DNA of 31,125 bases from IMG/VR virus record IMGVR_UViG_3300043411_001946, positions 1 to 31,125 of that record, one strand, 5' to 3'. Below, piece after piece: positions 4,943-28,773 of the stretch. This DNA comes from a virus. The notes below the pieces were generated by a model, which saw only the letters and a program-made list of their open reading frames with translations, was not told the origin of the DNA and did not search any database. The number at the start of each line of letters is the position of its first letter. Positions within the stretch are counted from its first letter, which is position 1. A program made the position numbers and the translations under genes.

Positions 4943-5467
4943 ATGACACAGCCACCCATGAACCGCGCCCAGCGCCGCGCCGCCCTCTTTGGCCGCGGCC
5001 GCACACTGCGCCAGCGCAACGGCGGCGCCGCCGGGCCACTCACGCCGCTCTACATCCTCGACAACGCCCGCCCGCACGAGCCAGGCGAGAAGGCCGGCGC
5101 GCACCTCAAGACGCTGGCCTGCTTCGAGCGCCTGAAGGACGGCAGCGCCGGCGGCGACGACTACGACCACGTGGCGATGGTGCTCAACCTGGCGAAGATG
5201 CGCGCGCTCGACATCGACGCCAAGCTGGCCGACATGATCGAGCGCGCGCAGGACGCCATGGCCCGCTGCCACGCCCGCCAGCAGCGCGGCGGCCGCTTCG
5301 GCTTCGACGGGCCGGGCCTGCAGCAGGTGGCCGACGCGCTGGACGCCGCGCAAGCCATCATTGACGCCAGCAGCCCGCTGCAGATGCGCGCCGCGCGCCG
5401 CAAGGTGGTGGACCTGCTGGTGGGCAAAGGGGCGTGGCGGCGGATGGAGCGGGAGGCGCAGGCATGA
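4943..5467 (+). CDS. hypothetical phage protein, 174 aa
   Basis: The N-terminus is basic (NRAQRRAALFGRGRTLRQRN), typical of a nucleic-acid contact region. From residue 35 it is mostly helical: LYILDNARPHEPGEKAGAHL, DDYDHVAMVLNLAKMRALDI, then a long helical C-terminus. I do not recognise a family. Its 3' third (from base 5282) lies inside the tandem duplication, so a second, 5'-truncated copy of this end occurs at 8487-8672. The next gene overlaps the stop. Confidence 0.65.
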   Translation: MTQPPMNRAQRRAALFGRGRTLRQRNGGAAGPLTPLYILDNARPHEPGEKAGAHLKTLACFERLKDGSAGGDDYDHVAMVLNLAKMRALDIDAKLADMIERAQDAMARCHARQQRGGRFGFDGPGLQQVADALDAAQAIIDASSPLQMRAARRKVVDLLVGKGAWRRMEREAQA

Positions 5468-5655
5468 GCGACCGAGACCCGCGCGAAATCCGGTCGGCAG
5501 CGCAGCGCTGGGTCATGATGGACCGGAGCGGCCGGACGCTTGAGCAGACCGGCTCGACAGGCAACATGGGCCCGATCACCCATGTCGCGCGCGTCGGCAA
5601 GAAAGCCGCCGGGCGTGTGCTGGACGGCCGCACCTGGGACGAGGTGCCCGCATGA
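5464..5655 (+). CDS. 63-aa protein resembling the C-terminal tail of DUF5131 (Gp37/Gp68)
   Basis: The ATG overlaps the preceding stop. The last ~25 residues (VARVGKKAAGRVLDGRTWDE) resemble the tail of phage DUF5131 proteins, where such a sequence closes a much longer radical-SAM-like polypeptide. Here only the tail is present, joined to an unrelated N-terminus (MSDRDPREIRSAAQRWVMMD). It is either a degenerate remnant or a stand-alone small domain. Similarity is judged by eye. Confidence 0.5.
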   Translation: MSDRDPREIRSAAQRWVMMDRSGRTLEQTGSTGNMGPITHVARVGKKAAGRVLDGRTWDEVPA

Positions 5656-5870
5656 CCAAGCGCTCCGATATCCACGAAGCCGCCTGCCTGGCCTACGGCT
5701 GGTTGTGGCACAGCCCCATTACAGACAACGGAGCCCAGCGCGCGCGCATCGCGCTCATCAACGCGCTGACGCGCGAAGACCTAGCGCATGGCATCCGGCT
5801 GGCCCAGGCTGCCGGCGCAAGGGTGGACGGCGAGGCCATCGAGGCACAGATGATGCGGGGACTGGAATGA
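5652..5870 (+). CDS. hypothetical protein, 72 aa
   Basis: The start overlaps the preceding stop (ATGA), and the next frame overlaps its stop. It is a soluble helical protein: SDIHEAACLAYGWLWHS, then ARIALINALTREDLAHGIRL. The final residues EAQMMRGLE are identical to the end of the 57-aa protein at 6350-6523, because both lie in a 73-bp direct repeat. The C-terminus of one of the two has therefore been replaced. Family unknown. Confidence 0.55.
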   Translation: MTKRSDIHEAACLAYGWLWHSPITDNGAQRARIALINALTREDLAHGIRLAQAAGARVDGEAIEAQMMRGLE

Positions 5871-5911
5871 GCCTGCAAGACCTGCTGCCCACCAACGCCG
5901 AGGCGCGCGCC
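5839..5911 (+). repeat. 73-bp direct repeat, left copy (unit 1)
   Basis: It is identical to 6492-6564. It covers the last codons of one gene (EAQMMRGLE) and the first 15 codons of the next (MSLQDLLPTNAEARA). Together with its partner it brackets a 580-bp segment holding an HNH remnant, the tRNA and a small gene. Confidence 0.95.
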
Positions 5912-5929
5912 TGCTGGAGCGCAAGATGA
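5867..5929 (+). pseudogene. truncated 5' end of the 186-aa HNH-like gene
   Basis: It encodes MSLQDLLPTNAEARA, identical to the start of the gene at 6520, then five unrelated residues (CWSAR) and a stop. The stop overlaps the ATG of the next frame. This is the stub left by the event that created the 73-bp repeat. Confidence 0.8.
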
Positions 5930-6219
5930 ACGACCTGCCCGGCCCCAACCATGTGCGCTGGCACCCAGTGCACCGGCTGGTGTGGGAGGCCGCCCACGGC
6001 CCCGTGCCCAAGGGCAGCATCTGCGTCTTCAAGCCGGGCCGGCGCACCACCGTGCTCGAAGAGATCACGCTCGACCGCATCGAGATCATCACGCGCGCGC
6101 AGAACGCGGCGCGCAACCACCCGCGCGCCCGCAGCCCCGAGCTGGCGCGGCTGGTGCAGCTCAAGGGCGCGATCACGCGCCAGGTCAACCGCATCACCCG
6201 CGAGGCCGCCCAGCAATGA
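5926..6219 (+). pseudogene. C-terminal half of a phage HNH endonuclease, 97 aa
   Basis: The frame opens with an ATG overlapping the stub above. It matches the second half of phage HNH proteins: HPVHRLVWEAAHGPVPKGSI (with the catalytic-region His of the HRLVW motif), then VFKPGRRTTVLEEITLDRIE, ITRAQNAARN, and a basic helical tail with INRITREA-like residues. Full-length relatives carry an N-terminal DNA-binding half of roughly equal size, which is missing here, so nuclease activity is doubtful. Start and length look like a truncation product. It is followed 7 bases later by the tRNA. Confidence 0.7.
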
Positions 6220-6226
6220 ATTCCAC

Positions 6227-6327
6227 GCGAGCTTGGCCGAATGGAAAGGCACCCGGTTCCCAACCGGTTCGGCGTTCCTGCTCCCCTGTAGGACGTTACG
6301 CGGGTTCGATTCCCGTAGCTCGCTCCA
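6227..6327 (+). tRNA. tRNA-Gly(CCC)-like with unusually long variable arm
   Basis: It folds by hand as a cloverleaf. The acceptor stem is GCGAGCT/AGCTCGC (7 bp), then U73 and an encoded CCA. The D stem is GCC/GGC (3 bp) with GG in the loop. The anticodon arm is CCCGG-TTCCCAA-CCGGT, with anticodon CCC at 6259-6261 and one C-U mismatch at the stem base. The T arm is GCGGG-TTCGATT-CCCGT. G1-C72, C2-G71, G3-C70, U73, C35 and C36 are the known bacterial glycine identity elements. The odd part is the ~31-nt variable region with a 5-6 bp stem (CGTTC.../...GGACG), a class II feature expected for Ser, Leu, Tyr or Sec but not Gly. At 101 nt it is very long. It sits within an operon between two ORFs. 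Confidence 0.8.
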
Positions 6328-6349
6328 TTTTTTCTCAGGAAATCGCCCG

Positions 6350-6523
6350 ATGACCACACCCCACATCAACACCCTGCGCCAGCACCTGCTGGACACCCTG
6401 GTCGAGCTGCGCGACCGCAAGCGCCCCATGGAGCCCGACCGCGCCCGCGCGGTGGCCCAGGTGGCCGCGGTGCTGGTGGACACGGCCAAGGTCGAGGCAC
6501 AGATGATGCGGGGACTGGAATGA
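6350..6523 (+). CDS. hypothetical protein, 57 aa
   Basis: The start MTTPHINTLRQHLLDTLVEL lies 22 bases after the tRNA CCA and follows a CAGGA sequence. Short proteins with this HINTLR...L.LRD...P...DRA pattern and a VNTAKVEV-like end are common next to HNH genes in Burkholderiales phages. Here the expected end is replaced by EAQMMRGLE from the 73-bp repeat. Probably a small helical protein of unknown function. Its stop overlaps the next ATG. Confidence 0.6.
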   Translation: MTTPHINTLRQHLLDTLVELRDRKRPMEPDRARAVAQVAAVLVDTAKVEAQMMRGLE

Positions 6524-6564
6524 GCCTGCAAGACCTGCTGCCCACCAACGCCGAGGCGCGCGCC
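6492..6564 (+). repeat. 73-bp direct repeat, right copy (unit 1)
   Basis: It is identical to 5839-5911. In this copy the reading frame of the downstream HNH-like gene is intact, so the right copy keeps the original gene start. Confidence 0.95.
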
Positions 6565-7080
6565 GCGCTGCTGCTGAGCATCCTGGCCCGCTGCGTGGAC
6601 GACGGCGGGTGCCAGCGCTGGCTGCGGGCCGTCAACGGCGACGGCCACCCGATGATGCGGCTGGCCGGCACCGTGGTGCCGGTGCGCCGTGTGGTGCACC
6701 AGCTGGTCAATGGCCCGCTGGCCCCCGGCGAGCGGGCGGTGTGCACCTGCGAATGCCGCCGCTGCGTGGAGCCCACGCACATGCAGGCCATGGCGCACGG
6801 CCGCATGATGCGGCTGCGCGCCCAAGAGGGCCGCATGCGCTCGCCCATGCGGGCGGCCAAGAGCGCCGCGCGCATGCGTGCCGCCAGCCGCTGGACCGAT
6901 GCCGACATCGCCGCCGTGCGGGCCACGGCCGGCACCGGCACGCTGGCCGAGCGCGCTGCGCCCTTCGGGATGAGCCCGACCTACCTCAGTGCGTTGGACC
7001 GGGGCTACTGGCGACGCCCAGTGGCCAATCCCTGGGCAGGCATGGGACAGCGCACGACGCTGCGGGGCACCAGCTCATGA
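6520..7080 (+). CDS. HNH-type endonuclease-like protein with C-terminal HTH, 186 aa
   Basis: Residues ~28-95 carry an HNH_3-like core: CQRWLRAVNGDGHPMMRL, then VRRVVHQLVNG, a cysteine pair set CTCECRRC, and VEPTHMQAM with the final His. This is the pattern of zinc-supported HNH nucleases of phage homing type. Residues ~125-165 form a helix-turn-helix with SRWTDADIAAVRAT, ERAAPFGMSPTYLSAL, which would give DNA specificity. Length and order fit a complete protein. It lies beside a second, broken HNH gene and the tRNA, a setting typical of mobile intron-less HNH genes. Start overlaps the previous stop. Confidence 0.7.
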   Translation: MSLQDLLPTNAEARAALLLSILARCVDDGGCQRWLRAVNGDGHPMMRLAGTVVPVRRVVHQLVNGPLAPGERAVCTCECRRCVEPTHMQAMAHGRMMRLRAQEGRMRSPMRAAKSAARMRAASRWTDADIAAVRATAGTGTLAERAAPFGMSPTYLSALDRGYWRRPVANPWAGMGQRTTLRGTSS

Positions 7081-7301
7081 CCGCCGAACTGATGACCCCC
7101 ACCGAGGTGGCCGAGGCGCTGGACTGCACGCCCGAGACGGTCAACGCCAAGCTGGCCGCGCATGATCGGGTGGGCGTCGGCGTTGATCGTCAGCATCGTG
7201 TAGCTGGGCACGACCTCGCCCGTGCCCGGGTCTGTCCATTCCGACCACAGGCCGGCCAGCGCGCTGCGTCGCCGGGCGACAACAGGTCAGCCCCGACCTG
7301 A
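7077..7301 (+). pseudogene. truncated HTH/excisionase-like gene running into foreign sequence
   Basis: The first ~28 residues (MTAELMTPTEVAEALDCTPE, then TVNAKLA) read as the start of a MerR/excisionase-type helix-turn-helix protein. After about base 7158 the frame reads only the antisense of leftward sequences (SRAP scrap and the small ORF at 7190-7462) and ends at a chance stop. The HTH gene therefore lost its 3' part at a recombination junction. Confidence 0.55.
7159..7268 (-). pseudogene. fragment of SOS-response-associated peptidase (SRAP/YedK family)
   Basis: On the - strand the frame through 7268-7161 encodes SALAGLWSEWTDPGTGEVVP followed by SYTMLTINADAHPIM. This matches the central SRAP block (AGLW..W.DP.TGE, then T..A......M). 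The N-terminal catalytic Cys2 region and the C-terminus are absent. The piece is ~36 codons long, has no start, and is bounded by sequence of other genes on both sides. It is a scrap left by mosaic recombination. Confidence 0.6.
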
Positions 7302-7462
7302 AAGCCGCCACCCTCTTCGATTTCCCGCGCTTGCTTTTTGTTCTGCGCAGAGTAGCTCGCCATTGCGACCTCCTCGGCCGCTTCGCCAGTGGGGGCGGAA
7401 ACCGTCCCAAGGAACAGGCTGCCGCCGTCGTGCCAATACAGGGTGCAGTCGAAGACTGCCAC
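7190..7462 (-). CDS. small leftward ORF of operon p1 (hypothetical; 3' end probably disrupted)
   Basis: A GTG start with AGGGAG a few bases upstream is the best start. A TTG at 7477 abutting the previous gene is the alternative. The first ~60 residues look real: VAVFDCTLYWHDGGSLFLGT, a helix with GEAAEEVAMASYSAQNKKQA, then EIEEGGGFQVGADLLSPGDA. After about base 7268 the frame runs over the SRAP scrap in a different phase and becomes R/C/A-rich, so the native C-terminus has probably been lost. Family unknown. Confidence 0.45.
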   Translation of the reverse strand: MAVFDCTLYWHDGGSLFLGTVSAPTGEAAEEVAMASYSAQNKKQAREIEEGGGFQVGADLLSPGDAARWPACGRNGQTRARARSCPATRC

Positions 7463-7473
7463 CGCGCACTCCC

Positions 7474-7635
7474 TCAAACCAACCCGGCCAGTTCGGCCAG
7501 GCGGTCGCGAGTGATGATCGCATCGCTGCCGGGGCGAACCCAGAAGGCCGCGCCGTTGTATGAGCCCTTGCCGCGCACGAGGCCCATGGCGACGGCGATC
7601 TTGTTGGCTTCGCGGAGGGTCTTGATGATGTTCAT
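7474..7635 (-). CDS. first full gene of operon p1, hypothetical protein, 53 aa
   Basis: The start MNIIKTLREANKIAVAMGLV is preceded by AAGGAA at good spacing. The remainder includes GSYNGAAFWVRPGSDAIITR and ends in DRLAELAGLV. It is small, soluble and compact in appearance, with no recognised family. It lies ~90 nt downstream of promoter p1 with its palindromic operator, and its stop abuts the next leftward ORF. Size, position and operator control resemble genes of anti-CRISPR and other counter-defence loci, but the sequence itself gives no function. Confidence 0.6.
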   Translation of the reverse strand: MNIIKTLREANKIAVAMGLVRGKGSYNGAAFWVRPGSDAIITRDRLAELAGLV

Positions 7636-7718
7636 GATGATTTCCTTCTGTTCTGCCTTCGCGGCAGTGAAAGCCCGGAGCCGCCGGTTCGGTGGTGGCA
7701 ATTAATCTCGATCACCAT
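7632..7718 (-). CDS. possible leaderless 28-codon leader ORF of p1
   Basis: An ATGGTG lies exactly 7 nt after the -10 hexamer, at or next to the predicted transcript start. The frame stays open for 28 codons (MVIEINCHHRTGGSGL...) and its TGA overlaps the ATG of the 53-aa gene. This may be a leaderless coupling peptide or simply conserved 5' RNA. Low confidence as a protein. Confidence 0.25.
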   Translation of the reverse strand: MVIEINCHHRTGGSGLSLPRRQNRRKSS

Positions 7719-7725
7719 GGGGTCT

Positions 7726-7754
7726 ATTATGTTCCGTTTTCGGAACAAACACAA
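7726..7754 (-). promoter_or_regulatory. promoter p1 with palindromic operator (unit 1 copy)
   Basis: Read leftward: -35 TTGTGT (7754-7749), a 17-bp spacer, and -10 CATAAT (7731-7726). The spacer region contains the palindrome TGTTCCG-TTTT-CGGAACA (7730-7747), so a bound repressor would block RNA polymerase. The same inverted repeat occurs in p2. A-rich DNA lies upstream of the -35. Confidence 0.8.
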
Positions 7755-7786
7755 GAGATTTTTCTAGGTGATTTCCCTATGCGCCA

Positions 7787-8263
7787 TCAGGCGGCTTGCT
7801 CCCCCGCCCAGGCCGCACGCAGCTCGGCGCTGTCCGACCGCCCTTGCAGCCAGCGCGAGTACTCGCCCGGCTCCATGTACACGATCACACTGCGCACATG
7901 CAGATCGGCCAGGGCTGCGCGAGTGCGCGCCAGCGCCGCAGCATGCACGGTCACGGGCAGCGGCTTGTAGGCCGGCTGGGACCGCCACAGGTCGGCGCTC
8001 TCGCGGTAGCGCAGCAGGTGGATCGACTCGGGCAACGCGCCCACGTCCGACGCCAGCGCGCGCACGGTGGCCAGCGCCTCGCGCGCCTGTTCGCTCAGCC
8101 AGCTGTCGATTTTGAGCACCTGGGCCTGCACGTCGTCGGGGACGGCAGACCGCCCGCTCTCCCAATAGCGCACGGTGCGCTCCTGCACGCCGGCCAGGGC
8201 GGCCAGATCAGGGACCGTGAGGCCGATGGCCTCGCGGATGGTTTTAAGTTCGGCCGGGGTCAT
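7787..8263 (-). CDS. XRE-family regulator, YdiL/Aca2-like, 158 aa (unit 1 copy)
   Basis: Identical to the protein at 10992-11468 (described there). In this copy the gene upstream is truncated by the duplication junction at 8499 and the native promoter p2 is not directly upstream. Expression would depend on readthrough from p2 across unit 2 or on a new promoter. Its stop lies 33 bases before the -35 of p1. Confidence 0.8.
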   Translation of the reverse strand: MTPAELKTIREAIGLTVPDLAALAGVQERTVRYWESGRSAVPDDVQAQVLKIDSWLSEQAREALATVRALASDVGALPESIHLLRYRESADLWRSQPAYKPLPVTVHAAALARTRAALADLHVRSVIVYMEPGEYSRWLQGRSDSAELRAAWAGEQAA

Positions 8264-8270
8264 CGGTCGC

Positions 8271-8499
8271 TCACAGGGCCCGCCGCACTTTGCTCAGCAC
8301 GCCGGTGCGCAGCACGATCTCATCGTCGCCGAGGGCCGCGTCGGCCAGGCCGATGATGGCCTCCACGTACAGCGCCGCATCGCCGGTGCCGCGCAGGGTG
8401 CCGCCGGTGGGCAGCAGCAGCTTGCTGTCCGGCGAGGGCACCCACTCGATGCAGCCCAGCGCGCCGCGCTGGGTGACGCGCGAATTCAGCGCGGCGGCC
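8271..8499 (-). pseudogene. 5'-truncated copy of the 142-aa leftward gene
   Basis: It holds the last ~75 codons of the gene found complete at 11476-11904, from ALNSRVTQRG onward. At the duplication junction the frame passes into the antisense of the 174-aa gene, giving a chimeric N-terminus if translated. It has no ribosome-binding site of its own. Confidence 0.8.
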
Positions 8500-8672
8500 G
8501 CTTCGGCTTCGACGGGCCGGGCCTGCAGCAGGTGGCCGACGCGCTGGACGCCGCGCAAGCCATCATTGACGCCAGCAGCCCGCTGCAGATGCGCGCCGCG
8601 CGCCGCAAGGTGGTGGACCTGCTGGTGGGCAAAGGGGCGTGGCGGCGGATGGAGCGGGAGGCGCAGGCATGA
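8487..8672 (+). pseudogene. 5'-truncated copy of the 174-aa gene
   Basis: It contains the last ~60 codons of the gene at 4943-5467, from the GGRFGFDGPGLQQ region to REAQA. Upstream the frame reads antisense of the leftward 142-aa gene. No start with a plausible ribosome-binding site is seen. Confidence 0.8.
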
Positions 8673-8860
8673 GCGACCGAGACCCGCGCGAAATCCGGTC
8701 GGCAGCGCAGCGCTGGGTCATGATGGACCGGAGCGGCCGGACGCTTGAGCAGACCGGCTCGACAGGCAACATGGGCCCGATCACCCATGTCGCGCGCGTC
8801 GGCAAGAAAGCCGCCGGGCGTGTGCTGGACGGCCGCACCTGGGACGAGGTGCCCGCATGA
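8669..8860 (+). CDS. 63-aa protein, second copy (DUF5131-tail-like)
   Basis: Identical to 5464-5655. In this copy the upstream operon is replaced by leftward genes, so I see no promoter that would transcribe it. Confidence 0.45.
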   Translation: MSDRDPREIRSAAQRWVMMDRSGRTLEQTGSTGNMGPITHVARVGKKAAGRVLDGRTWDEVPA

Positions 8861-9075
8861 CCAAGCGCTCCGATATCCACGAAGCCGCCTGCCTGGCCTA
8901 CGGCTGGTTGTGGCACAGCCCCATTACAGACAACGGAGCCCAGCGCGCGCGCATCGCGCTCATCAACGCGCTGACGCGCGAAGACCTAGCGCATGGCATC
9001 CGGCTGGCCCAGGCTGCCGGCGCAAGGGTGGACGGCGAGGCCATCGAGGCACAGATGATGCGGGGACTGGAATGA
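8857..9075 (+). CDS. hypothetical 72-aa protein, second copy
   Basis: Identical to 5652-5870, with the same overlapping start and stop. Expression is uncertain because the unit lacks the upstream rightward promoter. Confidence 0.45.
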   Translation: MTKRSDIHEAACLAYGWLWHSPITDNGAQRARIALINALTREDLAHGIRLAQAAGARVDGEAIEAQMMRGLE

Positions 9076-9116
9076 GCCTGCAAGACCTGCTGCCCACCAA
9101 CGCCGAGGCGCGCGCC
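9044..9116 (+). repeat. 73-bp direct repeat, left copy (unit 2)
   Basis: Second-unit counterpart of 5839-5911. It is identical to 9697-9769. Confidence 0.95.
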
Positions 9117-9134
9117 TGCTGGAGCGCAAGATGA
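9072..9134 (+). pseudogene. truncated HNH-like gene start, second copy
   Basis: Identical to 5867-5929: the first 15 codons of the 186-aa gene followed by a premature stop. Confidence 0.75.
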
Positions 9135-9424
9135 ACGACCTGCCCGGCCCCAACCATGTGCGCTGGCACCCAGTGCACCGGCTGGTGTGGGAGGCCGCCC
9201 ACGGCCCCGTGCCCAAGGGCAGCATCTGCGTCTTCAAGCCGGGCCGGCGCACCACCGTGCTCGAAGAGATCACGCTCGACCGCATCGAGATCATCACGCG
9301 CGCGCAGAACGCGGCGCGCAACCACCCGCGCGCCCGCAGCCCCGAGCTGGCGCGGCTGGTGCAGCTCAAGGGCGCGATCACGCGCCAGGTCAACCGCATC
9401 ACCCGCGAGGCCGCCCAGCAATGA
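9131..9424 (+). pseudogene. C-terminal half of HNH endonuclease, second copy
   Basis: Identical to 5926-6219, with the HRLVWEAAHGPVPKG motif and the same missing N-terminal half. Confidence 0.65.
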
Positions 9425-9431
9425 ATTCCAC

Positions 9432-9532
9432 GCGAGCTTGGCCGAATGGAAAGGCACCCGGTTCCCAACCGGTTCGGCGTTCCTGCTCCCCTGTAGGACG
9501 TTACGCGGGTTCGATTCCCGTAGCTCGCTCCA
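9432..9532 (+). tRNA. tRNA-Gly(CCC)-like with long variable arm, second copy
   Basis: Identical to 6227-6327, with anticodon CCC at 9464-9466. If transcribed, the duplication doubles the gene dose. Confidence 0.8.
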
Positions 9533-9554
9533 TTTTTTCTCAGGAAATCGCCCG

Positions 9555-9728
9555 ATGACCACACCCCACATCAACACCCTGCGCCAGCACCTGCTGGACA
9601 CCCTGGTCGAGCTGCGCGACCGCAAGCGCCCCATGGAGCCCGACCGCGCCCGCGCGGTGGCCCAGGTGGCCGCGGTGCTGGTGGACACGGCCAAGGTCGA
9701 GGCACAGATGATGCGGGGACTGGAATGA
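9555..9728 (+). CDS. hypothetical 57-aa protein, second copy
   Basis: Identical to 6350-6523, including the C-terminal EAQMMRGLE donated by the 73-bp repeat. Confidence 0.5.
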   Translation: MTTPHINTLRQHLLDTLVELRDRKRPMEPDRARAVAQVAAVLVDTAKVEAQMMRGLE

Positions 9729-9769
9729 GCCTGCAAGACCTGCTGCCCACCAACGCCGAGGCGCGCGCC
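9697..9769 (+). repeat. 73-bp direct repeat, right copy (unit 2)
   Basis: Second-unit counterpart of 6492-6564. Confidence 0.95.
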
Positions 9770-10285
9770 GCGCTGCTGCTGAGCATCCTGGCCCGCTGCG
9801 TGGACGACGGCGGGTGCCAGCGCTGGCTGCGGGCCGTCAACGGCGACGGCCACCCGATGATGCGGCTGGCCGGCACCGTGGTGCCGGTGCGCCGTGTGGT
9901 GCACCAGCTGGTCAATGGCCCGCTGGCCCCCGGCGAGCGGGCGGTGTGCACCTGCGAATGCCGCCGCTGCGTGGAGCCCACGCACATGCAGGCCATGGCG
10001 CACGGCCGCATGATGCGGCTGCGCGCCCAAGAGGGCCGCATGCGCTCGCCCATGCGGGCGGCCAAGAGCGCCGCGCGCATGCGTGCCGCCAGCCGCTGGA
10101 CCGATGCCGACATCGCCGCCGTGCGGGCCACGGCCGGCACCGGCACGCTGGCCGAGCGCGCTGCGCCCTTCGGGATGAGCCCGACCTACCTCAGTGCGTT
10201 GGACCGGGGCTACTGGCGACGCCCAGTGGCCAATCCCTGGGCAGGCATGGGACAGCGCACGACGCTGCGGGGCACCAGCTCATGA
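9725..10285 (+). CDS. HNH-type endonuclease-like protein, second copy
   Basis: Identical to 6520-7080: the HNH_3-like core with CTCECRRC and VEPTHM, and the C-terminal helix-turn-helix. Confidence 0.6.
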   Translation: MSLQDLLPTNAEARAALLLSILARCVDDGGCQRWLRAVNGDGHPMMRLAGTVVPVRRVVHQLVNGPLAPGERAVCTCECRRCVEPTHMQAMAHGRMMRLRAQEGRMRSPMRAAKSAARMRAASRWTDADIAAVRATAGTGTLAERAAPFGMSPTYLSALDRGYWRRPVANPWAGMGQRTTLRGTSS

Positions 10286-10506
10286 CCGCCGAACTGATGA
10301 CCCCCACCGAGGTGGCCGAGGCGCTGGACTGCACGCCCGAGACGGTCAACGCCAAGCTGGCCGCGCATGATCGGGTGGGCGTCGGCGTTGATCGTCAGCA
10401 TCGTGTAGCTGGGCACGACCTCGCCCGTGCCCGGGTCTGTCCATTCCGACCACAGGCCGGCCAGCGCGCTGCGTCGCCGGGCGACAACAGGTCAGCCCCG
10501 ACCTGA
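10282..10506 (+). pseudogene. truncated HTH/excisionase-like gene, second copy
   Basis: Identical to 7077-7301. Only the first ~28 codons are native. The rest is antisense of the leftward mosaic. Confidence 0.5.
10364..10473 (-). pseudogene. SRAP/YedK fragment, second copy
   Basis: Identical to 7159-7268, with the AGLWSEWTDPGTGE block. Its presence in both units shows that the mosaic junction is older than the tandem duplication. Confidence 0.55.
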
Positions 10507-10667
10507 AAGCCGCCACCCTCTTCGATTTCCCGCGCTTGCTTTTTGTTCTGCGCAGAGTAGCTCGCCATTGCGACCTCCTCGGCCGCTTCGCCAGTGGGGG
10601 CGGAAACCGTCCCAAGGAACAGGCTGCCGCCGTCGTGCCAATACAGGGTGCAGTCGAAGACTGCCAC
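10395..10667 (-). CDS. small leftward ORF of operon p1, second copy
   Basis: Identical to 7190-7462. GTG start, first ~60 residues plausible, C-terminal end probably replaced at the mosaic junction. Confidence 0.45.
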   Translation of the reverse strand: MAVFDCTLYWHDGGSLFLGTVSAPTGEAAEEVAMASYSAQNKKQAREIEEGGGFQVGADLLSPGDAARWPACGRNGQTRARARSCPATRC

Positions 10668-10678
10668 CGCGCACTCCC

Positions 10679-10840
10679 TCAAACCAACCCGGCCAGTTCG
10701 GCCAGGCGGTCGCGAGTGATGATCGCATCGCTGCCGGGGCGAACCCAGAAGGCCGCGCCGTTGTATGAGCCCTTGCCGCGCACGAGGCCCATGGCGACGG
10801 CGATCTTGTTGGCTTCGCGGAGGGTCTTGATGATGTTCAT
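10679..10840 (-). CDS. 53-aa hypothetical protein of operon p1, second copy
   Basis: Identical to 7474-7635. It has the AAGGAA ribosome-binding site and a start overlapping the end of the possible leader ORF at 10837-10923. Confidence 0.6.
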   Translation of the reverse strand: MNIIKTLREANKIAVAMGLVRGKGSYNGAAFWVRPGSDAIITRDRLAELAGLV

Positions 10841-10930
10841 GATGATTTCCTTCTGTTCTGCCTTCGCGGCAGTGAAAGCCCGGAGCCGCCGGTTCGGTGG
10901 TGGCAATTAATCTCGATCACCATGGGGTCT

Positions 10931-10959
10931 ATTATGTTCCGTTTTCGGAACAAACACAA
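10931..10959 (-). promoter_or_regulatory. promoter p1 with palindromic operator (unit 2 copy)
   Basis: Same elements as the unit 1 copy: TTGTGT, 17 bp, CATAAT, with palindrome TGTTCCG-TTTT-CGGAACA at 10935-10952. In this copy the operon upstream (p2) is complete, so this is the native arrangement. Confidence 0.8.
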
Positions 10960-10991
10960 GAGATTTTTCTAGGTGATTTCCCTATGCGCCA

Positions 10992-11468
10992 TCAGGCGGC
11001 TTGCTCCCCCGCCCAGGCCGCACGCAGCTCGGCGCTGTCCGACCGCCCTTGCAGCCAGCGCGAGTACTCGCCCGGCTCCATGTACACGATCACACTGCGC
11101 ACATGCAGATCGGCCAGGGCTGCGCGAGTGCGCGCCAGCGCCGCAGCATGCACGGTCACGGGCAGCGGCTTGTAGGCCGGCTGGGACCGCCACAGGTCGG
11201 CGCTCTCGCGGTAGCGCAGCAGGTGGATCGACTCGGGCAACGCGCCCACGTCCGACGCCAGCGCGCGCACGGTGGCCAGCGCCTCGCGCGCCTGTTCGCT
11301 CAGCCAGCTGTCGATTTTGAGCACCTGGGCCTGCACGTCGTCGGGGACGGCAGACCGCCCGCTCTCCCAATAGCGCACGGTGCGCTCCTGCACGCCGGCC
11401 AGGGCGGCCAGATCAGGGACCGTGAGGCCGATGGCCTCGCGGATGGTTTTAAGTTCGGCCGGGGTCAT
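10992..11468 (-). CDS. XRE-family regulator, YdiL/Aca2-like, 158 aa; last gene of operon p2
   Basis: Residues 1-60 form a helix-turn-helix of the XRE/DUF1870 (YdiL) kind: MTPAELKTIREAIGLTVPDL, AALAGVQERTVRYWESGR, then AVPDDVQAQVL. The RTVRYWESG and VPDDV signature is shared with YdiL and with Aca2, the anti-CRISPR-associated repressor that shuts off its own operon. The C-terminal ~95 residues (LWRSQPAYKPLPVT..., VIVYMEPGEYSRWL) make it longer than Aca2 (~120 aa). It starts 7 bases after the preceding gene. Palindromic operators lie in the promoter of its own operon (p2) and in the next promoter (p1). Inference: it represses both by binding TGTTCC-N6-GGAACA. A general phage repressor is the alternative. 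Confidence 0.82.
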   Translation of the reverse strand: MTPAELKTIREAIGLTVPDLAALAGVQERTVRYWESGRSAVPDDVQAQVLKIDSWLSEQAREALATVRALASDVGALPESIHLLRYRESADLWRSQPAYKPLPVTVHAAALARTRAALADLHVRSVIVYMEPGEYSRWLQGRSDSAELRAAWAGEQAA

Positions 11469-11475
11469 CGGTCGC

Positions 11476-11904
11476 TCACAGGGCCCGCCGCACTTTGCTC
11501 AGCACGCCGGTGCGCAGCACGATCTCATCGTCGCCGAGGGCCGCGTCGGCCAGGCCGATGATGGCCTCCACGTACAGCGCCGCATCGCCGGTGCCGCGCA
11601 GGGTGCCGCCGGTGGGCAGCAGCAGCTTGCTGTCCGGCGAGGGCACCCACTCGATGCAGCCCAGCGCGCCGCGCTGGGTGACGCGCGAATTCAGCGCGGC
11701 GGCCAAGTCCCGCGCCGCGGAGATGGCGATGGCGCGCAAGTGGATTTGCACGCCGGGCTGGTCCGTGGCCAGCATCAGCAGGCCCGAGTCACCGTCCTGG
11801 TCTCGCTCGACCAGGGCGGCGTCGGGCGCTAGACGGTTGATCGCCGCGATGGCGGCCCGGAGGCCCCAGACCTCCTGGGCCGTTAGATCGATTTCGAAGT
11901 CCAT
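11476..11904 (-). CDS. hypothetical protein of operon p2, 142 aa
   Basis: The ATG has a strong AAAGGAG site 6 bases upstream. The acidic protein begins MDFEIDLTAQEVWGLRAAIA, continues with DSGLLMLATDQPGVQIHL and a GCIEWVPSPDSKLLLPTGG block, and ends TGVLSKVRRAL. It looks like an alpha/beta fold with no membrane segment. I do not recognise it. The frame is open upstream to about 12105 with no stop, so an N-terminally extended form from a GTG at 12072 is possible. The upstream part (PEAAESLLAEMRAGKRAMK, ending FTVSKEKR) reads like protein. The duplication breakpoint at 11692-11704 lies inside this gene. Confidence 0.6.
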   Translation of the reverse strand: MDFEIDLTAQEVWGLRAAIAAINRLAPDAALVERDQDGDSGLLMLATDQPGVQIHLRAIAISAARDLAAALNSRVTQRGALGCIEWVPSPDSKLLLPTGGTLRGTGDAALYVEAIIGLADAALGDDEIVLRTGVLSKVRRAL

Positions 11905-19198: not shown

Positions 19199-21631
19199 TC
19201 AGTCGCCCTCGTGCGAGATCGTCAGCGTCGTCGAGTAGCCGTCGGCGCCTGAGAGGATGTTGGTGTTTTGCGACGAGACGACCTGGACCGACACCGTCCC
19301 GCCGACCGCCAGGTACACCGTGGCGCCGCCGGCGGAGCCGAGGATCACGCCCTGGTCGCCGCCGCCCGTGTCGCCCAGCGATGCGCCGGTGCTGCCGAGC
19401 AGGCGGCGCACGCCGTTGACCACGGCGACCGCCGTGAAGTAGCCCCAGGGCACGGGCGCGACGGACACGCGCTGGCCCGTCACGACGAAGTCGATGCGGT
19501 GGTAGCCGGCCGCGTTGGCGGTGTACGTGGAGCCGCTCCACGCGCCCGGCACGCCTTGCGCCTCGACCGAGGCGCCGAAGGGAATGGTCGTCCAGGCGTT
19601 CGCGAACGCCGTGGTCGCGCCGTTGTAGCGCTGGCTGAGCAGCGAGCGGGCGACGCCGGTGTTGGGAGGGTCCATCGTCACGCTGTACGGGCCGTGCACC
19701 TCGTCGCCGCACTTGTAGCGCAGCGTGCGCACGCCGGCGGCCAGGCTCTTGGTGTCGAGCAGCGCGAAGGCGTTGCCGCGCGCGTCGGTGGCCGGCGCGC
19801 TGCCGGCCGCGAAGGCGCCGCCGTCCACCGACACCGCGACCTGGCTCATTGGCAAGCAGCCCTCGGCGCGCCAGGCGGTGAGCAGCTTGTTGGCGGTGGC
19901 CTCGACCGGCGCGATGCGCCCGCCGCTGGGCGCCCACCAGCTTTCTGGCCGCAGCAGCGGCGGGCCGCCCCACTGCTTGCCCACGAAAAGCTCGTAGATG
20001 CTGGCGCTGGCCGCCTTCTGCACCCAGCTCGTCCCCGACTGGGTGAACAGGCCAGTGAACAGCGTGTCGGGGTCGGTCCACTGAGCAAGTTGGTTGGTGC
20101 TGATCTGCGGCCATTTGGCCAGCAGCGCGGGCACGGTCTTCACGGCCTTGAGCGCATGGCCCATCAGGATGTGCTGCCCCAGCATGTTGAGGTGCACGCC
20201 GTCGAGTCCGATGCAGCCCAGGCGCGCCGCGCGCCAGATGTGCATCGAGAACGCGCCGTTGACGGCGCCGTGCGAGCGGGCGTGCGCGTCGAGCGACAGC
20301 CACTCCGCGAAATTGGTCTTCTGCGGGCTGCTGGCGGTGTCGTCCAGCATCTCGGGGCAGTAAGCGTCGGTCAGGATGCCCGATGCCTTTTTTTGCATCA
20401 GGCCCGGCAGCGTGCCCTTGTTGAGCAGCGTCGTGCCGGGCGTGCTGAAGCAGGTGGCGTCGTACAGGTACTCGCTGACGATCACGATCACGGCCGAGGG
20501 CAGGGCCGCGCGCAGGGCGTTCAGCGCGGTGCTGCAGTCGGCCTGGCACTGGGCCAGCGTGCGGCCCTCGACACGCAGGCCCAAATCGTTGGCGCCCAAG
20601 GCGATCAGCAGCACGTCGGGCACTTCGGCGATGGCTTGCTGGACCATCGTCTTGCCGTTGTAGACGGCGAGCGTGTTGGCCTTGTTCCAGGTCCAGCCGC
20701 CGACGGACAGGTTGATCAGGTCGATGGGCGCGCCGAGCTGGCGCATGCGGTCGGCCAGCAGCTTGGGCCAGCAGTCGCTTTGCAGCGGGTGCTGCGCGGC
20801 GCTGCTGTCGCCGATGACGACGACTTTGGGCACGTAGGCCCCAGCACCGCCACCGCCCGCGTTGACCTGAAAGTAGCTGTTGGCCGCCGTGGCGAAAAAC
20901 AGCTTGTTGGGCGAGCTGCTGCGGTAAAAGCGGTTGGGCTGCAGCGAGCCCAGCGTGGCGGCCGAGTCGATGGCGGCTTCGGTCGCCAGAATGATCTGCG
21001 CCTTCGCGGTGTCGGCGCTCAGGCGCTGCAGCATCGCGTCCACCGTGGACGCCGAGGCGCCGTCCTGCACGCCGATCAGCGCGGAGGCGGACACGGCGGA
21101 CATGTCGACGTTGACGAGGGCGGTGCCGGCGGCGTTCCAGCGCGTGAAGCGGTCGGCCTGCGGCACGGGCAGGCCCGTGCTGGCGCTGGCGCCCAGCACC
21201 GCCCACTTGGTCGGGTCGTCCTTGGGCCGCGTGCTGGTCGGGCCGACGGGGGCGATGCAGCGGTAGGTGAGGCCGGGGCTGTTGAGCGGGTCGTACACCA
21301 CCGTGGGCGGCGTGGCGCCAGCGCCCGACGTGCCGACGGTGCTGGTGGTCCAGGGCACCGCGATCTGCGCCGCGCCGCTGGCGGCCGACGTGGCCGCTTG
21401 CTGCGCAAACGTTTGCGCCTGGCCGCGCGAGGTCTCGGCGTATTCGGCCGACTCGGCCGCCGCGCCGGCGTTGTTGTTGACGTTGGCCAGCAGCGCGTTG
21501 AATTCGCCGATCTTGACGGTGGTCAGGTGATTGACCCAGACCAGCGCCTGCTGGCGAAACGCCGAGTCGAGGACGTTCGGCAGCGGGCCGGGGAACGCCG
21601 TGATGGGGGTGGGGGGGATCAGGGTGGGCAT
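19199..21631 (-). CDS. tail fibre/spike with SGNH hydrolase domain, 810 aa
   Basis: Same N-terminal docking module as the fibre above (IPPTPITAFPGPLPNVLDSA). An Ala-rich stalk follows, then an SGNH/GDSL esterase domain: block I VVVIGDSSAAQ (Ser ~276), a GGWTW glycine block, ALGANDLGL (block III Asn), and DGVHLNMLGQH near residue 470 (block V Asp/His). Such domains remove acyl groups from surface polysaccharide during adsorption. The C-terminal ~330 residues are beta-rich, with VSVDGGAFAAGSA and VLGSAGGATVYLAVGG. It ends the overlap chain from the tail-tip gene. Confidence 0.85.
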   Translation of the reverse strand: MPTLIPPTPITAFPGPLPNVLDSAFRQQALVWVNHLTTVKIGEFNALLANVNNNAGAAAESAEYAETSRGQAQTFAQQAATSAASGAAQIAVPWTTSTVGTSGAGATPPTVVYDPLNSPGLTYRCIAPVGPTSTRPKDDPTKWAVLGASASTGLPVPQADRFTRWNAAGTALVNVDMSAVSASALIGVQDGASASTVDAMLQRLSADTAKAQIILATEAAIDSAATLGSLQPNRFYRSSSPNKLFFATAANSYFQVNAGGGGAGAYVPKVVVIGDSSAAQHPLQSDCWPKLLADRMRQLGAPIDLINLSVGGWTWNKANTLAVYNGKTMVQQAIAEVPDVLLIALGANDLGLRVEGRTLAQCQADCSTALNALRAALPSAVIVIVSEYLYDATCFSTPGTTLLNKGTLPGLMQKKASGILTDAYCPEMLDDTASSPQKTNFAEWLSLDAHARSHGAVNGAFSMHIWRAARLGCIGLDGVHLNMLGQHILMGHALKAVKTVPALLAKWPQISTNQLAQWTDPDTLFTGLFTQSGTSWVQKAASASIYELFVGKQWGGPPLLRPESWWAPSGGRIAPVEATANKLLTAWRAEGCLPMSQVAVSVDGGAFAAGSAPATDARGNAFALLDTKSLAAGVRTLRYKCGDEVHGPYSVTMDPPNTGVARSLLSQRYNGATTAFANAWTTIPFGASVEAQGVPGAWSGSTYTANAAGYHRIDFVVTGQRVSVAPVPWGYFTAVAVVNGVRRLLGSTGASLGDTGGGDQGVILGSAGGATVYLAVGGTVSVQVVSSQNTNILSGADGYSTTLTISHEGD

Positions 21632-22563
21632 CAGATCATGCTCTGCAGTCGGCCGGTGAGCGTGCAGCGGCCGTAGTCGTCGTAGCGCACCGAGCCTTCG
21701 AAAGGCCCGAAGCCCCGCAAAGGCTCGTAAGCCGCGCCCGTGTGAAACAGCCAGAGGGCGGGGACGCTCTCGTAGCGCACCAGCAGGTCTTTGACCGACG
21801 CGGCGTTGGTCGGGTCGATGAAAACCGGGCCGCTGATCTCGCCGCCGCTGGGGCGCTTGATGTAGGTGTAGGTGCCATCGGCCTCGAACTTTTTGTAGCT
21901 GTAGGGCAGCACCGAGAACTCCACGCCGTACTGCGTGGTGCCCAGGCCGATGAAGCGGCCAAGCTGGATGGCGCCCAGCCGGGCGACGCCGCCGGGGTTG
22001 GCGACGCGGATGGTGATGACGGGGTCGAGCGCCAGGCTCAGGCCGGACACGTATAGCGTGTCCTGCAGGCGCACGGGCGCGAGGAAGAAGGCTTGCCAGT
22101 CGTGCACGCCCTGGCCGTCGAGGGCGTAGTCGGTCGGGCCGAACACCAGGGCGCCGCCCGGCCCCTCGGTGATCGTGATCGTGGCGGTGGTGGCTTCCAG
22201 CCCGCCCAGCCACAAATCCGTGATCAGGTCGCCGGGGCGCAGCACGTAGGTCAGCTCGGCGTCGCCGACGGCCTGCGTCGAACGGTAGAGGTCGAACGGC
22301 GCCATGGTGTTCGTGGGCCGCAGCGGCTTCCAATTGATCGCGTCGACTTCGGGCGCGGGCGCCGTCGTGCCAGCGACGATGCGGGCGTAGACCGCGCCGA
22401 TGGACACGCGGTGGCGCAGGTCGCCGACCAGGTAGGACTCGGCCGGGTTCCATGGCGCGGTGCCGTCCTCGGGCAGCGCCCCGGCCGAGGTGCTGGCCGA
22501 GACGATGTGCGAGCGGCCCAGGGGCACGGCATCGAGCATGCCGAAGGTGACGGGCAGGTCCAT
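21631..22563 (-). CDS. tail-tip/baseplate protein, 310 aa
   Basis: It lies between tape measure and fibres and overlaps both. Starts MDLPVTFGMLDAVPLGRSHI. Residues ~35-80 (WNPAESYLVGDLRHR, GAVYARIVAGTTAPAP, INWKPL) have the W...Y..GD.V....Y.A......P......W spacing of ChtBD3-like carbohydrate-binding modules used in phage tips. The middle is beta-rich (ITIRVANPGGVARLGAIQLG), and the end has FEGSVRYDDYGRCTLTGRL. It is the only gene where a siphophage would normally carry several tip genes, so it may combine distal-tail and receptor-contact roles. That is inference. Confidence 0.6.
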   Translation of the reverse strand: MDLPVTFGMLDAVPLGRSHIVSASTSAGALPEDGTAPWNPAESYLVGDLRHRVSIGAVYARIVAGTTAPAPEVDAINWKPLRPTNTMAPFDLYRSTQAVGDAELTYVLRPGDLITDLWLGGLEATTATITITEGPGGALVFGPTDYALDGQGVHDWQAFFLAPVRLQDTLYVSGLSLALDPVITIRVANPGGVARLGAIQLGRFIGLGTTQYGVEFSVLPYSYKKFEADGTYTYIKRPSGGEISGPVFIDPTNAASVKDLLVRYESVPALWLFHTGAAYEPLRGFGPFEGSVRYDDYGRCTLTGRLQSMI

Positions 22564-25500
22564 CAGGCCTCCTCCGTCCGCATCGCGTTGCCGTTGCTGG
22601 TCACGCGGTCGAGGACGCGCGCGGTCAGCTCGGAGGCGGCGGCGACGCGGTCGAGCTTGGCGGCCAGCGCGGCCACTTCGCGGCGCAGTGCGCGGTTCTC
22701 GGACTCCAGGCGCTCGGCCAGGCGGTCGCCGTGGCCGCCGCCGCCGATCAGGCGTTGGGACTGCTCAAAGCTGTAGTAGCGCGCGGGGCCGGTGAACTCG
22801 ACCTCCGGCCCGCGCTCGCCCACCAGGCGCACGCCCCCGGCGTGCAGGCCGCCGTTGGCGAACGCGGGCACCACGACACCGCCCTCGACGCCCATGCCGC
22901 GCTGGCGCAGGAAGGCGTCCAGCTCCTGCGCGTTGACGCCCATGGCGCCGGCCAGGCCGTCCAGCGTCCAGCCCTGGGCCTGGCGCCAGTCGCTGAAGGC
23001 GCCGCCGGCGCGGATGGCGTCCATCTCGGCCTGCAGGCCGGCCATGACTTCGCGGCGCACGACGATGCCGTTGCGCACGGCAAAGCCCTCGTCGTAGATG
23101 CGCGCGGCCATGTCGGCGGCGTCAACCCCGTTGGGGCCGATGGCGCCGGCCAGCGCGTTGACGTGCCAGCCAAGGGCGCGGCTCCAGTCCCCGTTGCCGT
23201 ACCAGCTTGCGCCGCGAATCGCGGCGACCTCGCGCTGCAGCGCGGTCTGCACCGGGGTGGCGCCACCGCCGCCGAAGGCGCCGCCGCCGCCGAAGGCGCC
23301 GCCGCCGCCGAAGGCGCCACCGCCGCCGAAGGCGCCACCGCCGGTCACGGGGTTGGCGCCGGGCAGCGCCGCGGCGGCGTTGCGGGCGGATTCGGCGGCG
23401 CCGCGCGCGGCGGTCTCGGCGGCGAGCAGGCCGACGAGCTGGGCGATGCCATCGTCGATGCTGGTCACCGTGGTCTGCATGCCGCGCTGCACGTCGATGA
23501 GTTGTTGGTAGTGCTGCACCTGCTGCTCCAGCAGGCCGATCTGCTGCTCGGCGTCGGTCAGGCGCAGGCCGGCTCCCTCTTCCAGCGCGCCCAGCTTGGC
23601 GGCCAGGATGGCTTTGTCCACCTCGTACTGCGCCACCGATGCGTACTGATTGACATCGAGGCCGGCGACGGCGGCGTCGATGGCCTGCACCAGCTTGTCC
23701 GAGGACGGCAGGGCGCCGCCGGTGAGCGTCTGCCGCAGCGCGTCGTCGATGTACGCGCGGCCCTGCGCGGCGGCCAGGGCGCGGGTGTCGGCCATCTCGC
23801 CGCGCAGGCTGCGTTTGCGGTCGCCGGTGAGCGACTGGATGGCGCTGGCTTCGTCGGCCAACGCGCGGGCGGCCTGCAGGCTGCGGTCGAAGAACTTCTG
23901 CAGCTCGCCCCATACGCGGTCGGTGCTGCCCCGGGCGGCGTCGTAGGCCTGCTCGGCGGCGCGGGCGGCGTCCTCGGCCGCGTCCTTCGCGGCGCGGGCG
24001 GCGTCGGCCGCGGCGTCGGCGGCGGCGCGGGCGGCGTCGGCCGCGGCGTCGGCGGCGGCGCGCGCGGCGTCGGCCGCGGCGTCGGCGGCGGCGCGCGCGG
24101 CCTCTTGCGCCAGGCGCTGGGCCTCGGCCTGGCGCGCCCACTGGTCGGCGTAGCTGTCGTGGTAGGGCGCGCTGCGCGCCATCTGATCGCCCAGGGCGGC
24201 CACCTGCGCATTGATCTGCTGCAGCGCGGCCTGGAATGCCGGGTCGCCGAGGACGGCGCCGAGGGCCTGGGCGGTGGCGGTGGCGTCGGCCAGCATCTTG
24301 TCGATGGCGGCCTGGCTCACGGCCTGGCTGACCACGGTGCCGGTGAGGGCGGCCTGGATCATGGGCTCGACCACGCCCTGCACCATCATCGACGTGATGC
24401 GCTGCGCGAAATTGCCCGCTATGGCGTCGTAGATGCCGCCGGTGACGATGTCGGCCATGGCCTGGCCGGCGGTCAGGCCCTCGTGCTCGAAGCGGCCCAG
24501 CAGCGCGGCCGATAGGGTGGAGGCCAGGGCGTCGGCGCCGGCGAAGGCTTGCTCGATGGCGGTGGCCACGTCGCCGACGGCATCGGCCGCGGCGTCAGCG
24601 GCGGGGGTGATCTGGGCGAAAGCCCCCTGCACGGACATGAGCGCGTTGAACTGGGCGCGGCCCGCGTCGGTCAACAGGCCTCCAGAGTCGACCAGGGCAT
24701 CGACCATGGCGCGCAGCTCGGCGCGGGTGGCGGGCAGGTCGAGGCCCACGCTGCCCAGGGTGGCGCCGAGCTGGCGGCTGGTGATGGCGGCGCGCTCGGC
24801 GTCGGAGTAGAAGTTTTGTAGGTAGCTGTTGTAGTTGTTGGTGAGATTGTCCAGGCCGCCGGCGAGTTCGCCCAGCGCATACACCGCGTCCTGGCTGGCG
24901 TTGGCGAAGTCGGGGAACACGTCGATCATCAGGCGGATGGCGCCGATCGTTCCGGCCAACTCGACGGACGCCTTCTGGTAGAGGGCCGCGGCTTCCTCGC
25001 CCACCTTGTCGCCGGTGAGCTTGGCCATCTCGACCTGGGTTGCGTCCACCTGCTTCCTGGCCCATTCGGGCAGGTCGAGCTGCTCGAATGCGTCCAGCGC
25101 CTTGGTGTAGACGCCCCGGATCGCGTCACCGTGGTTGGCGTAGGACTCGGTGTCCACCGAGCGCACCAGCGTCCGGTCGCCTTGCGAAATGTCCAGGCCC
25201 GCCCACGTGCCGCCCTTGCCGCGCAGCGCGAACCCAACCGTCGCCTTGAAGTCCTCGGCCGTGCCGCCGAGGGCGCGGCCGACCACCGTCAGCGGCCCGA
25301 CGATGCCCTCGGCCATCGCGCGGCTGGCCGCGGTCAGCTCCGGGCTGCTGCTGACCAAGGCGCTGCCCTTGTTGTTCCAGAAGCCTTCAGCCTGGGGGTC
25401 CGTGTACCCGGCGCCGCGGTAGAAGTCCTCCTTGTAGGCGTTCGCCCAGACCTTCCACTGCATCATCGGGCCGTTGTCGCTCATCGAGGCCGAAGCCAGC

Positions 25501-27980: not shown

Positions 27981-28773
27981 TGCGCGGCTTTCCGGTGAGC
28001 GCGGGCGGCCCACTCTTCGATGGCGATGGATTCCATGGCGCGCAGGTCTTCGAGCAGGGTGCCGAGTGACCAGGGCGGCTTGGCGCGGGGGCGAAAGCCC
28101 TGGGCCTGGAGGTAGGCGCAGACGCCTGCGTAGTCGAGCCCGGTGGGCTGGCCGGCCATGCCGGCGTAGCGCCATTGGGTTTGCACGGCCATCCATGCCG
28201 CCCAGGCAGGGGCGTTGCAGGGCCAGAGCACAGCGGTGGGCGGGGCTGACACGGCGGGCGGCGCGCCGACGATGCGCAGGCCGAAAGCGGCGGCGGCGGC
28301 GTTGAGGTCTTCGTCGGGGTCGGCGGGCGAGCCAGCATGCGCGGGGCCTTGGTCGTCTTCTGGGGGGGGTGTCTCAAGCTGGCCACGCGCCCACAGGCGT
28401 GTCAGCCGCCGGAGTTTTTTCGGCGGCCGGCGTCACCGTCGTTGGCGAAGATGGCTTTCTGGTAGGCCATGAAAATGAGCATCTCGGCGCCGAGGACGGT
28501 GAGCATCTGGCCGAAGGCTTCGGGGCTGAAATCGGCGGGCTTACCGTCTCGCAGCACGAGTTGCTGGCCGCGCCAGCCGGTGATGTGGTCCTGCAGGAAG
28601 TCGGTGACGGACTGGTGCGGGTTCTCGGCCTTGGGGCCGAAGTGCTGCTGGTACTGCTCCAGGCTGAGGCGGCGGGCGCTGAGGTGGAAGAAGAAGTTGC
28701 GGCGCACGCGGCCGCTTTGGACGTCGAGGGTGACGGGGAAGTCGAGGGTGTCTTCGATGGCGAGGGTGTACAT
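27977..28773 (-). CDS. frameshifted tail assembly chaperone (GT-like, with DUF1799), 265 aa
   Basis: Product of a -1 shift at A AAA AAC (28414-28420). The first 120 residues are those of the short chaperone; after the shift, translation continues LRRLTRLWARGQLETPPPED and reaches the DUF1799 part: WAAWMAVQTQWRYAGMAGQP, TGLDYAGVCAYLQAQGFRPR. The shifted frame is open for 145 codons back to the slip site, and has no need of its own start. As in lambda gpG/gpGT, the minor long form would bind tail tube subunits while the shared part coats the tape measure. A stand-alone start inside the second frame (28252) is the alternative. Confidence 0.8.
28402..28773 (-). CDS. tail assembly chaperone, short form (G-like), 123 aa
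   Basis: Starts MYTLAIEDTLDFPVTLDVQS and continues with NFFFHLSARRLSLEQYQQHF, TDFLQDHITGWRGQQLVLRD, and PEAFGQMLTVLGAEMLIFMA. Position between tail tube and tape measure, size, and the slippery site three codons before the stop (RRKNSGG) identify it as the G-type chaperone of a lambda-like tail module. It acts in the cytoplasm during tail assembly and is absent from virions. Confidence 0.85.
   Translation of the reverse strand: MYTLAIEDTLDFPVTLDVQSGRVRRNFFFHLSARRLSLEQYQQHFGPKAENPHQSVTDFLQDHITGWRGQQLVLRDGKPADFSPEAFGQMLTVLGAEMLIFMAYQKAIFANDGDAGRRKNSGG
28414..28420 (-). other. programmed -1 ribosomal frameshift site A AAA AAC
   Basis: In the zero frame the codons are CGA AAA AAC TCC, giving the X XXY YYZ heptamer A AAA AAC, one of the most efficient -1 slip sites in bacteria. 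The stop follows three codons later (TCC GGC GGC TGA). GC-rich sequence just downstream could form a stimulatory stem. Confidence 0.88.

Follow-up and report, generated by a model that had tools for sequence, protein, structure and literature searches.

A tRNA-Gly(CCC) gene with a long variable arm

IMG/VR virus record IMGVR_UViG_3300043411_001946, all 31,125 bases of which were analysed and are referred to below as the window, carries its tail genes on the minus strand and, at 6227-6327 on the plus strand, a transfer RNA (tRNA) gene that joins the glycine anticodon CCC to a variable (V) region of class II type. The initial annotation had placed the gene at these coordinates, with an encoded CCA end, class II features and a variable region of about 31 nt; the Rfam match and the predicted fold bear this out, the region measuring 31 nt and forming a hairpin of 10 pairs. 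The gene is laid out as follows.

6227..6327, plus strand: tRNA-Gly(CCC) gene, copy 1, with encoded CCA (RF00005, fold and the single-sequence covariance model R1)
6259-6261, plus strand: anticodon CCC, within copy 1
6269..6299, plus strand: variable region, 31 nt (sequence and fold)
6271..6297, plus strand: hairpin of the extra V arm, its 10 pairs interrupted by one bulged U and closing a 6-nt loop (fold)

With its CCA the gene is 101 nt long. The Rfam tRNA model RF00005 matches it from 6227 to 6324 with 51.8 bits (E = 1.5e-8; model positions 1-71, end to end), the gathering score of the family being 29 bits; the same model gives 50-60 bits to genuine tRNAs of class II length (82-91 nt) from a betaproteobacterial genome. 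All seven acceptor pairs form, the D stem has 3 bp, the T stem 5 bp (one G-U), and the anticodon stem consists of 4 bp plus a C27/U43 mismatch. U8, A14, G18G19 and the TTCGA sequence of the T loop are retained. The V hairpin spans 27 of the 31 nt of the variable region, which outranks 99.5% of its shuffled versions in folding, yet 22% of random stretches of this G+C-rich phage do equally well; the fold of the whole molecule has z = -2.7. The 3-bp D stem, initially listed as an oddity, is indeed present, but it is common to class I relatives and is no sign of decay.

Since its variable region has 31 nt and not the 4-5 nt of a class I bacterial tRNA-Gly, the molecule is a variant and no ordinary member of that family, and the 10-pair hairpin gives it the stem-loop typical of class II. 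Allo-tRNAs, with 8/4 or 9/3 acceptor/T stems and a 12-bp acceptor branch, are ruled out by the 7/5 stems. The initial annotation overlooked a second, identical copy of the gene at 9432-9532. ARAGORN reports neither of the two, probably because it limits the variable loop to about 25 nt. A tRNA-Tyr which the same program places at 20623-20706 of the window lacks Rfam support and is probably spurious.

Glycine identity elements

The identity set of bacterial tRNA-Gly comprises U73, G1-C72, C2-G71, G3-C70, C35 and C36 (PMC9976931). All six are present in the window tRNA, which confirms its earlier assignment as a tRNA-Gly(CCC) with the complete bacterial glycine set. The same positions set it apart from the families in which long arms are expected. 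Bacterial tRNA-Ser has G73 and G2-C71 where the window tRNA has U73 and C2-G71, and tRNA-Leu and bacterial tRNA-Tyr have A73. C2-G71 also acts as an antideterminant towards the seryl-tRNA synthetase (SerRS) of E. coli, and A73 is required for Leu and Tyr (PMC9976931).

Another class II molecule with anticodon CCC is the nematode nev-tRNA-Gly(CCC). However, it is eukaryotic and decodes GGG as leucine (PMC4033280), whereas U73 and the rest of the bacterial glycine set mark the window tRNA.

Nearest relatives of the window tRNA

Relatives were ranked, among the loci collected, by their bit score with R1, a covariance model built from the window tRNA alone. The leading phage tRNA-Gly, all with anticodon UCC, are L190 (64.3 bits), CUB19 (63.5), L189 (62.7), L217 (55.0) and L192 (52.6); CUB19 is a Stenotrophomonas phage (OM638088.1) and the others are IMG/VR contigs. 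A low covariance score together with a lack of homologues had been named beforehand as evidence that would speak against the gene; the score is good, and the acceptor stem GCGAGCU/AGCUCGC is identical in the window tRNA and in these five relatives. The D arm of the window tRNA, GGCCGA-UGG--AGGC, is near-identical in CUB19, L189 and L190 and similar in all four class I relatives. The window tRNA thus has the acceptor stem, the U73 and the D arm of a phage tRNA-Gly lineage. CUB19, L189, L190 and L192, the nearest full-length relatives, resemble it in acceptor stem, U73 and encoded CCA, but differ in the anticodon and in a variable loop of 4 nt without a V hairpin.

The arm is nevertheless not confined to the window. 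L217, found by a scan for the acceptor stem, combines that stem with a UCC anticodon and a 16-nt variable region of class II type, on a body close to that of phage tRNA-Ser(UGA). L314 combines the D-arm type of the window tRNA with a different acceptor stem and a 16-nt arm. In their D and anticodon arms, the class II L314 and the class I CUB19/L190 are mutual nearest neighbours, which argues that the V arm comes and goes within the lineage, present as it is in the window tRNA, L217 and L314 and missing in other members. On these comparisons, the best reading is that a phage tRNA-Gly has gained or lost the arm. The class II features noted initially are real but not peculiar to one molecule, being shared with L217, L314 and other phage tRNA-Gly. 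The acceptor-stem lineage gave only chance matches, none of them a tRNA, in 399 Burkholderiales genomes.

Class II tRNA-Gly in other phages

IMG/VR was scanned for a glycine anticodon loop with a T arm and UCCA downstream of it, at the spacing of class II tRNAs. After duplications and odd cases had been dropped, at least about 42 class II tRNA-Gly besides that of the window remained, a pattern-based lower bound and not a tally of independent origins. Among these phage molecules (L217, L314, L260, L245, L301 and others), which share with the window tRNA their class II arm, glycine identity set and phage origin, the variable region has 12-17 nt against 31 and the anticodon is UCC or, in some, GCC. 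The window arm is the longest seen, and the window tRNA is the extreme member of this group of phage tRNA-Gly with a class II arm.

A second scan, which left base 73 free so as to avoid bias at that position, gave a sample of 22 class II tRNAs with anticodon UCC. Of the bacterial glycine elements, U73 is found in 19 of the 22, G1-C72 in 20, C2-G71 in 21 and G3-C70 in 19; A73 and a Leu-like body occur in two. When five class II tRNA-Gly were aligned, every cloverleaf and V-stem pair could form (100% of V-stem cells paired), and two of the three V-stem pairs showed compensatory change.

The class II pattern was absent from 287 prokaryote genomes (250 of Burkholderiales and 37 of many phyla), while it recovered the class II tRNA-Gly in all six phage control records. 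This version of the pattern is slightly narrower than the IMG/VR one in that it also requires C32, so that it is a partial test of absence from hosts. When six class II sequences were compared with 50,697 named phage records, no class II tRNA-Gly appeared among the matches listed; the full-length tRNA-Gly matches of L301 and L277 in these records are about 75 nt long, that is, class I. Thus the initial statement that bacterial tRNA-Gly are class I holds in the prokaryote genomes tested, but class II tRNA-Gly recur in phages. Candidates for a class II tRNA-Gly with anticodon CCC, drawn from IMG/VR and from 85,000 species genomes, were all chance matches, duplicated tRNAs or members of a planctomycete group whose extra variable region is short.

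Several further observations were made along the way. In one group of phage tRNA-Gly(UCC) (L237, L250, L269, L275, L277, L280, L289, L291, L307, L310, L332 and L439) a near-constant 15-nt variable region, AGGCGAATAG(G/T)TT(C/A)C, is found on class I-like bodies. L386 (600-) and L410 (3449-) are phage class II tRNAs with the glycine anticodon UCC, A73 and tRNA-Leu-like bodies, and are possibly Leu tRNAs reading Gly codons. In Inbricusvirus, a class II tRNA annotated as tRNA-Arg(UCU) has G73 and a Ser-like body (L227:699-789 and L228:699-789). The Planctomycetia metagenome-assembled genome CSMAG_2820 (L125, L136, L144 and L151) carries several tRNA-Gly(CCC)-like genes with a variable region of about 10 nt.

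Gene neighbourhood and tandem duplication

The tRNA gene lies between two genes of the same orientation, inside a tandemly repeated unit.

5926..6219, plus strand: C-terminal part of an HNH endonuclease (PF13392, phrog_1891); the N-terminal domain of its relatives is missing
6220..6349, plus strand: insert of 130 bp that separates the HNH gene from the small gene after it and consists of a 7-nt leader, the tRNA and 22 nt with AGGA
6350..6523, plus strand: small conserved phage protein p9, 57 codons, downstream of the tRNA (phrog_2044, weakly)
9432..9532, plus strand: tRNA-Gly(CCC) copy 2, identical (Rfam match)
5282..8486: tandem unit 1, 3205 bp, with tRNA, truncated HNH gene, p9 gene and a second HNH gene
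8487..11691: tandem unit 2, identical to unit 1

In about 40 related IMG/VR loci that have both genes, the HNH stop and the following start overlap or lie no more than 14 nt apart, which leaves no space for a tRNA. No tRNA at the Rfam threshold was found in the 14 closest HNH/p9 loci, and the weak R1 matches in other HNH/p9 relatives are of class I length and off the HNH/p9 junction. Judged from this comparison, the tRNA gene was inserted between two neighbours that run in the same direction. The 22 nt that follow it contain an AGGA resembling a ribosome-binding site; near the tRNA, there is no consensus match for a promoter of its own or for an intrinsic terminator.

The second tRNA copy is accounted for by the exact 3205-bp tandem duplication, whose units are bordered by a 13-bp direct repeat, CAGCGCGGCGGCC, at 5282, 8487 and 11692 (whole span 5282-11704). 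This duplication is either a recent amplification or an assembly artefact. Apart from it, the window contains no further copy of the V hairpin.

Upstream of the start of the HNH gene there are only 24 open codons, where a 73-nt repeat joins. This repeat, exact at 5839-5911, 6492-6564, 9044-9116 and 9697-9769, occupies the place of the N-terminal HNH part that relatives of the gene at 5926 possess, and the second HNH gene, at 6520, begins with the same sequence. Defence-system models gave no strong match on neighbouring genes, and the ParB-like gene, used as bait for relatives, gave no confirmed match. Elsewhere in the window, the tape measure gene (22563-28196, minus strand) contains G+C-rich short-period repeats at 23934-24110.

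Probable function of the tRNA and alternative explanations

From its sequence and fold, the gene probably encodes a working phage tRNA-Gly that reads GGG and in which the variable region has grown into an arm of class II type, a reading in which we place somewhat better than even confidence. The arm would have been added to a class I-like phage tRNA-Gly of the GCGAGCU/AGCUCGC acceptor-stem lineage. The tRNA would be co-transcribed with the HNH and p9 genes, matured normally at its 5' and 3' ends, and charged with glycine by the glycyl-tRNA synthetase (GlyRS) of the host. The arm need not disturb GlyRS, because the known determinants (acceptor stem, base 73 and anticodon) lie outside the variable region. 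SerRS and the leucyl- and tyrosyl-tRNA synthetases would be expected to reject the molecule because of C2-G71 and U73. It would then decode GGG and probably supplement or replace the host tRNA-Gly during infection.

Several observations count against this. The C27/U43 mismatch and A15/C48, which is no standard Levitt pair, are mild lesions. The pattern scans of IMG/VR and of the 85,000 species genomes brought up no relative that combines the CCC anticodon with a long arm, so that the exact form (CCC with a 31-nt variable region) rests on one contig. The body of the molecule (positions 8-43) is about equally close to class II tRNA-Ser and to tRNA-Gly, which makes a Ser-type ancestor possible. 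Finally, GGG accounts for 9% of the glycine codons in the open reading frames counted, so that a codon need is not evident.

The lesions and the single contig would also fit a non-functional relic, in which a phage tRNA-Gly was broken by a short palindrome inserted into its variable loop, recently enough for the remains to be still visible. The rearranged locus, with its HNH gene deprived of the N-terminal domain, points the same way. Against a relic, the other stems, the CCA and every glycine determinant are intact, and at least about 42 other phage tRNA-Gly retain an arm of class II type (12-17 nt), which covaries where tested; we consider it unlikely. It is far less probable still that the hairpin is an intron excised after transcription in the archaeal manner: no bacterial or phage enzyme is known for introns of the V arm, and in other phages the insert differs in length and covaries in sequence, which is the behaviour of a structural arm. 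The precedent is the archaeal tRNA-Gly(CCC) of Thermofilum pendens, which differs from the window tRNA in having an 18-nt V-arm intron that makes its precursor look class II (PMC4810241). A derivative of tRNA-Ser that is still serylated and inserts serine at GGG, with mistranslation or toxicity as the outcome, also appears very improbable. The 3-bp D stem, long arm and C11-G24 are common to the window tRNA and bacterial class II tRNA-Ser; the long arm, C11-G24, G30-C40, R4-Y69 and C72 are serine elements (PMC9976931), the body of L217 is nearly that of a phage tRNA-Ser(UGA), and serylation does not depend on the anticodon. But the window tRNA, whose anticodon also differs from that of tRNA-Ser, has U73 and the SerRS antideterminant C2-G71 in place of G73 and G2-C71, and the glycine set is conserved in many class II tRNA-Gly.

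A further proposal, by analogy with T6 tRNA-Tyr, SegB and Septu, adds a purpose to the working tRNA-Gly and is compatible with it: the arm may be an adaptation to a host defence directed at the variable region of tRNAs, whether by cutting or by recognition, with the tandem duplication raising tRNA dosage. Phage tRNAs replace tRNA degraded by Retron-Eco7 (PMC11555353), and some have altered anticodon loops that are considered to make them resistant to nucleases (PMC10264068). The window combines a changed variable region with a truncated HNH gene and an exact tandem duplication bordered by a 13-bp repeat, much as in T6, where a tRNA next to a truncated endonuclease gene lies within a tandem duplication. 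In that segmental amplification, however, the partners are tRNA-Tyr and the GIY-YIG enzyme SegB and the case was shown experimentally (PMC13096335), whereas the window pairs tRNA-Gly with an HNH gene. Septu, for its part, was demonstrated on tRNA-Tyr and not on tRNA-Gly, no defence aimed at the variable region of tRNA-Gly was identified, and the duplication may be an assembly artefact. We therefore hold the proposal to be doubtful, and protection by the arm from a host enzyme recognising the variable region to be a guess with little weight. Equally speculative is its more general form, in which phages would repeatedly build class II tRNA-Gly, a kind that did not turn up in the tested host genomes, by attaching a V arm to a tRNA of glycine identity or retaining one there, the arm serving as resistance or decoy against host enzymes reading the variable region, the window copy having been amplified in tandem with an endonuclease gene.

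Implications

Reviews describe long variable arms as specific to tRNA-Ser, tRNA-Leu and bacterial tRNA-Tyr, and find the structure of bacterial tRNA genes surprisingly uniform (PMC4033280). This rule is broken many times by phage tRNA-Gly in which conserved glycine determinants go together with a covarying class II arm. The open-access papers searched, subscription papers aside, yielded no earlier account of a phage class II tRNA-Gly carrying bacterial glycine identity, which is no proof of novelty. Since the longest arm is missed by a common tRNA finder, more such tRNAs may be hidden. The dozens of viruses with shorter-armed glycine tRNAs suggest an overlooked way of viral tRNA remodelling. 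Phage class II tRNA-Gly provide a natural set for asking why phages carry tRNAs, and such molecules also bear on whether tRNA-cutting defences, one of which cuts the variable loop, select the shape of tRNAs.
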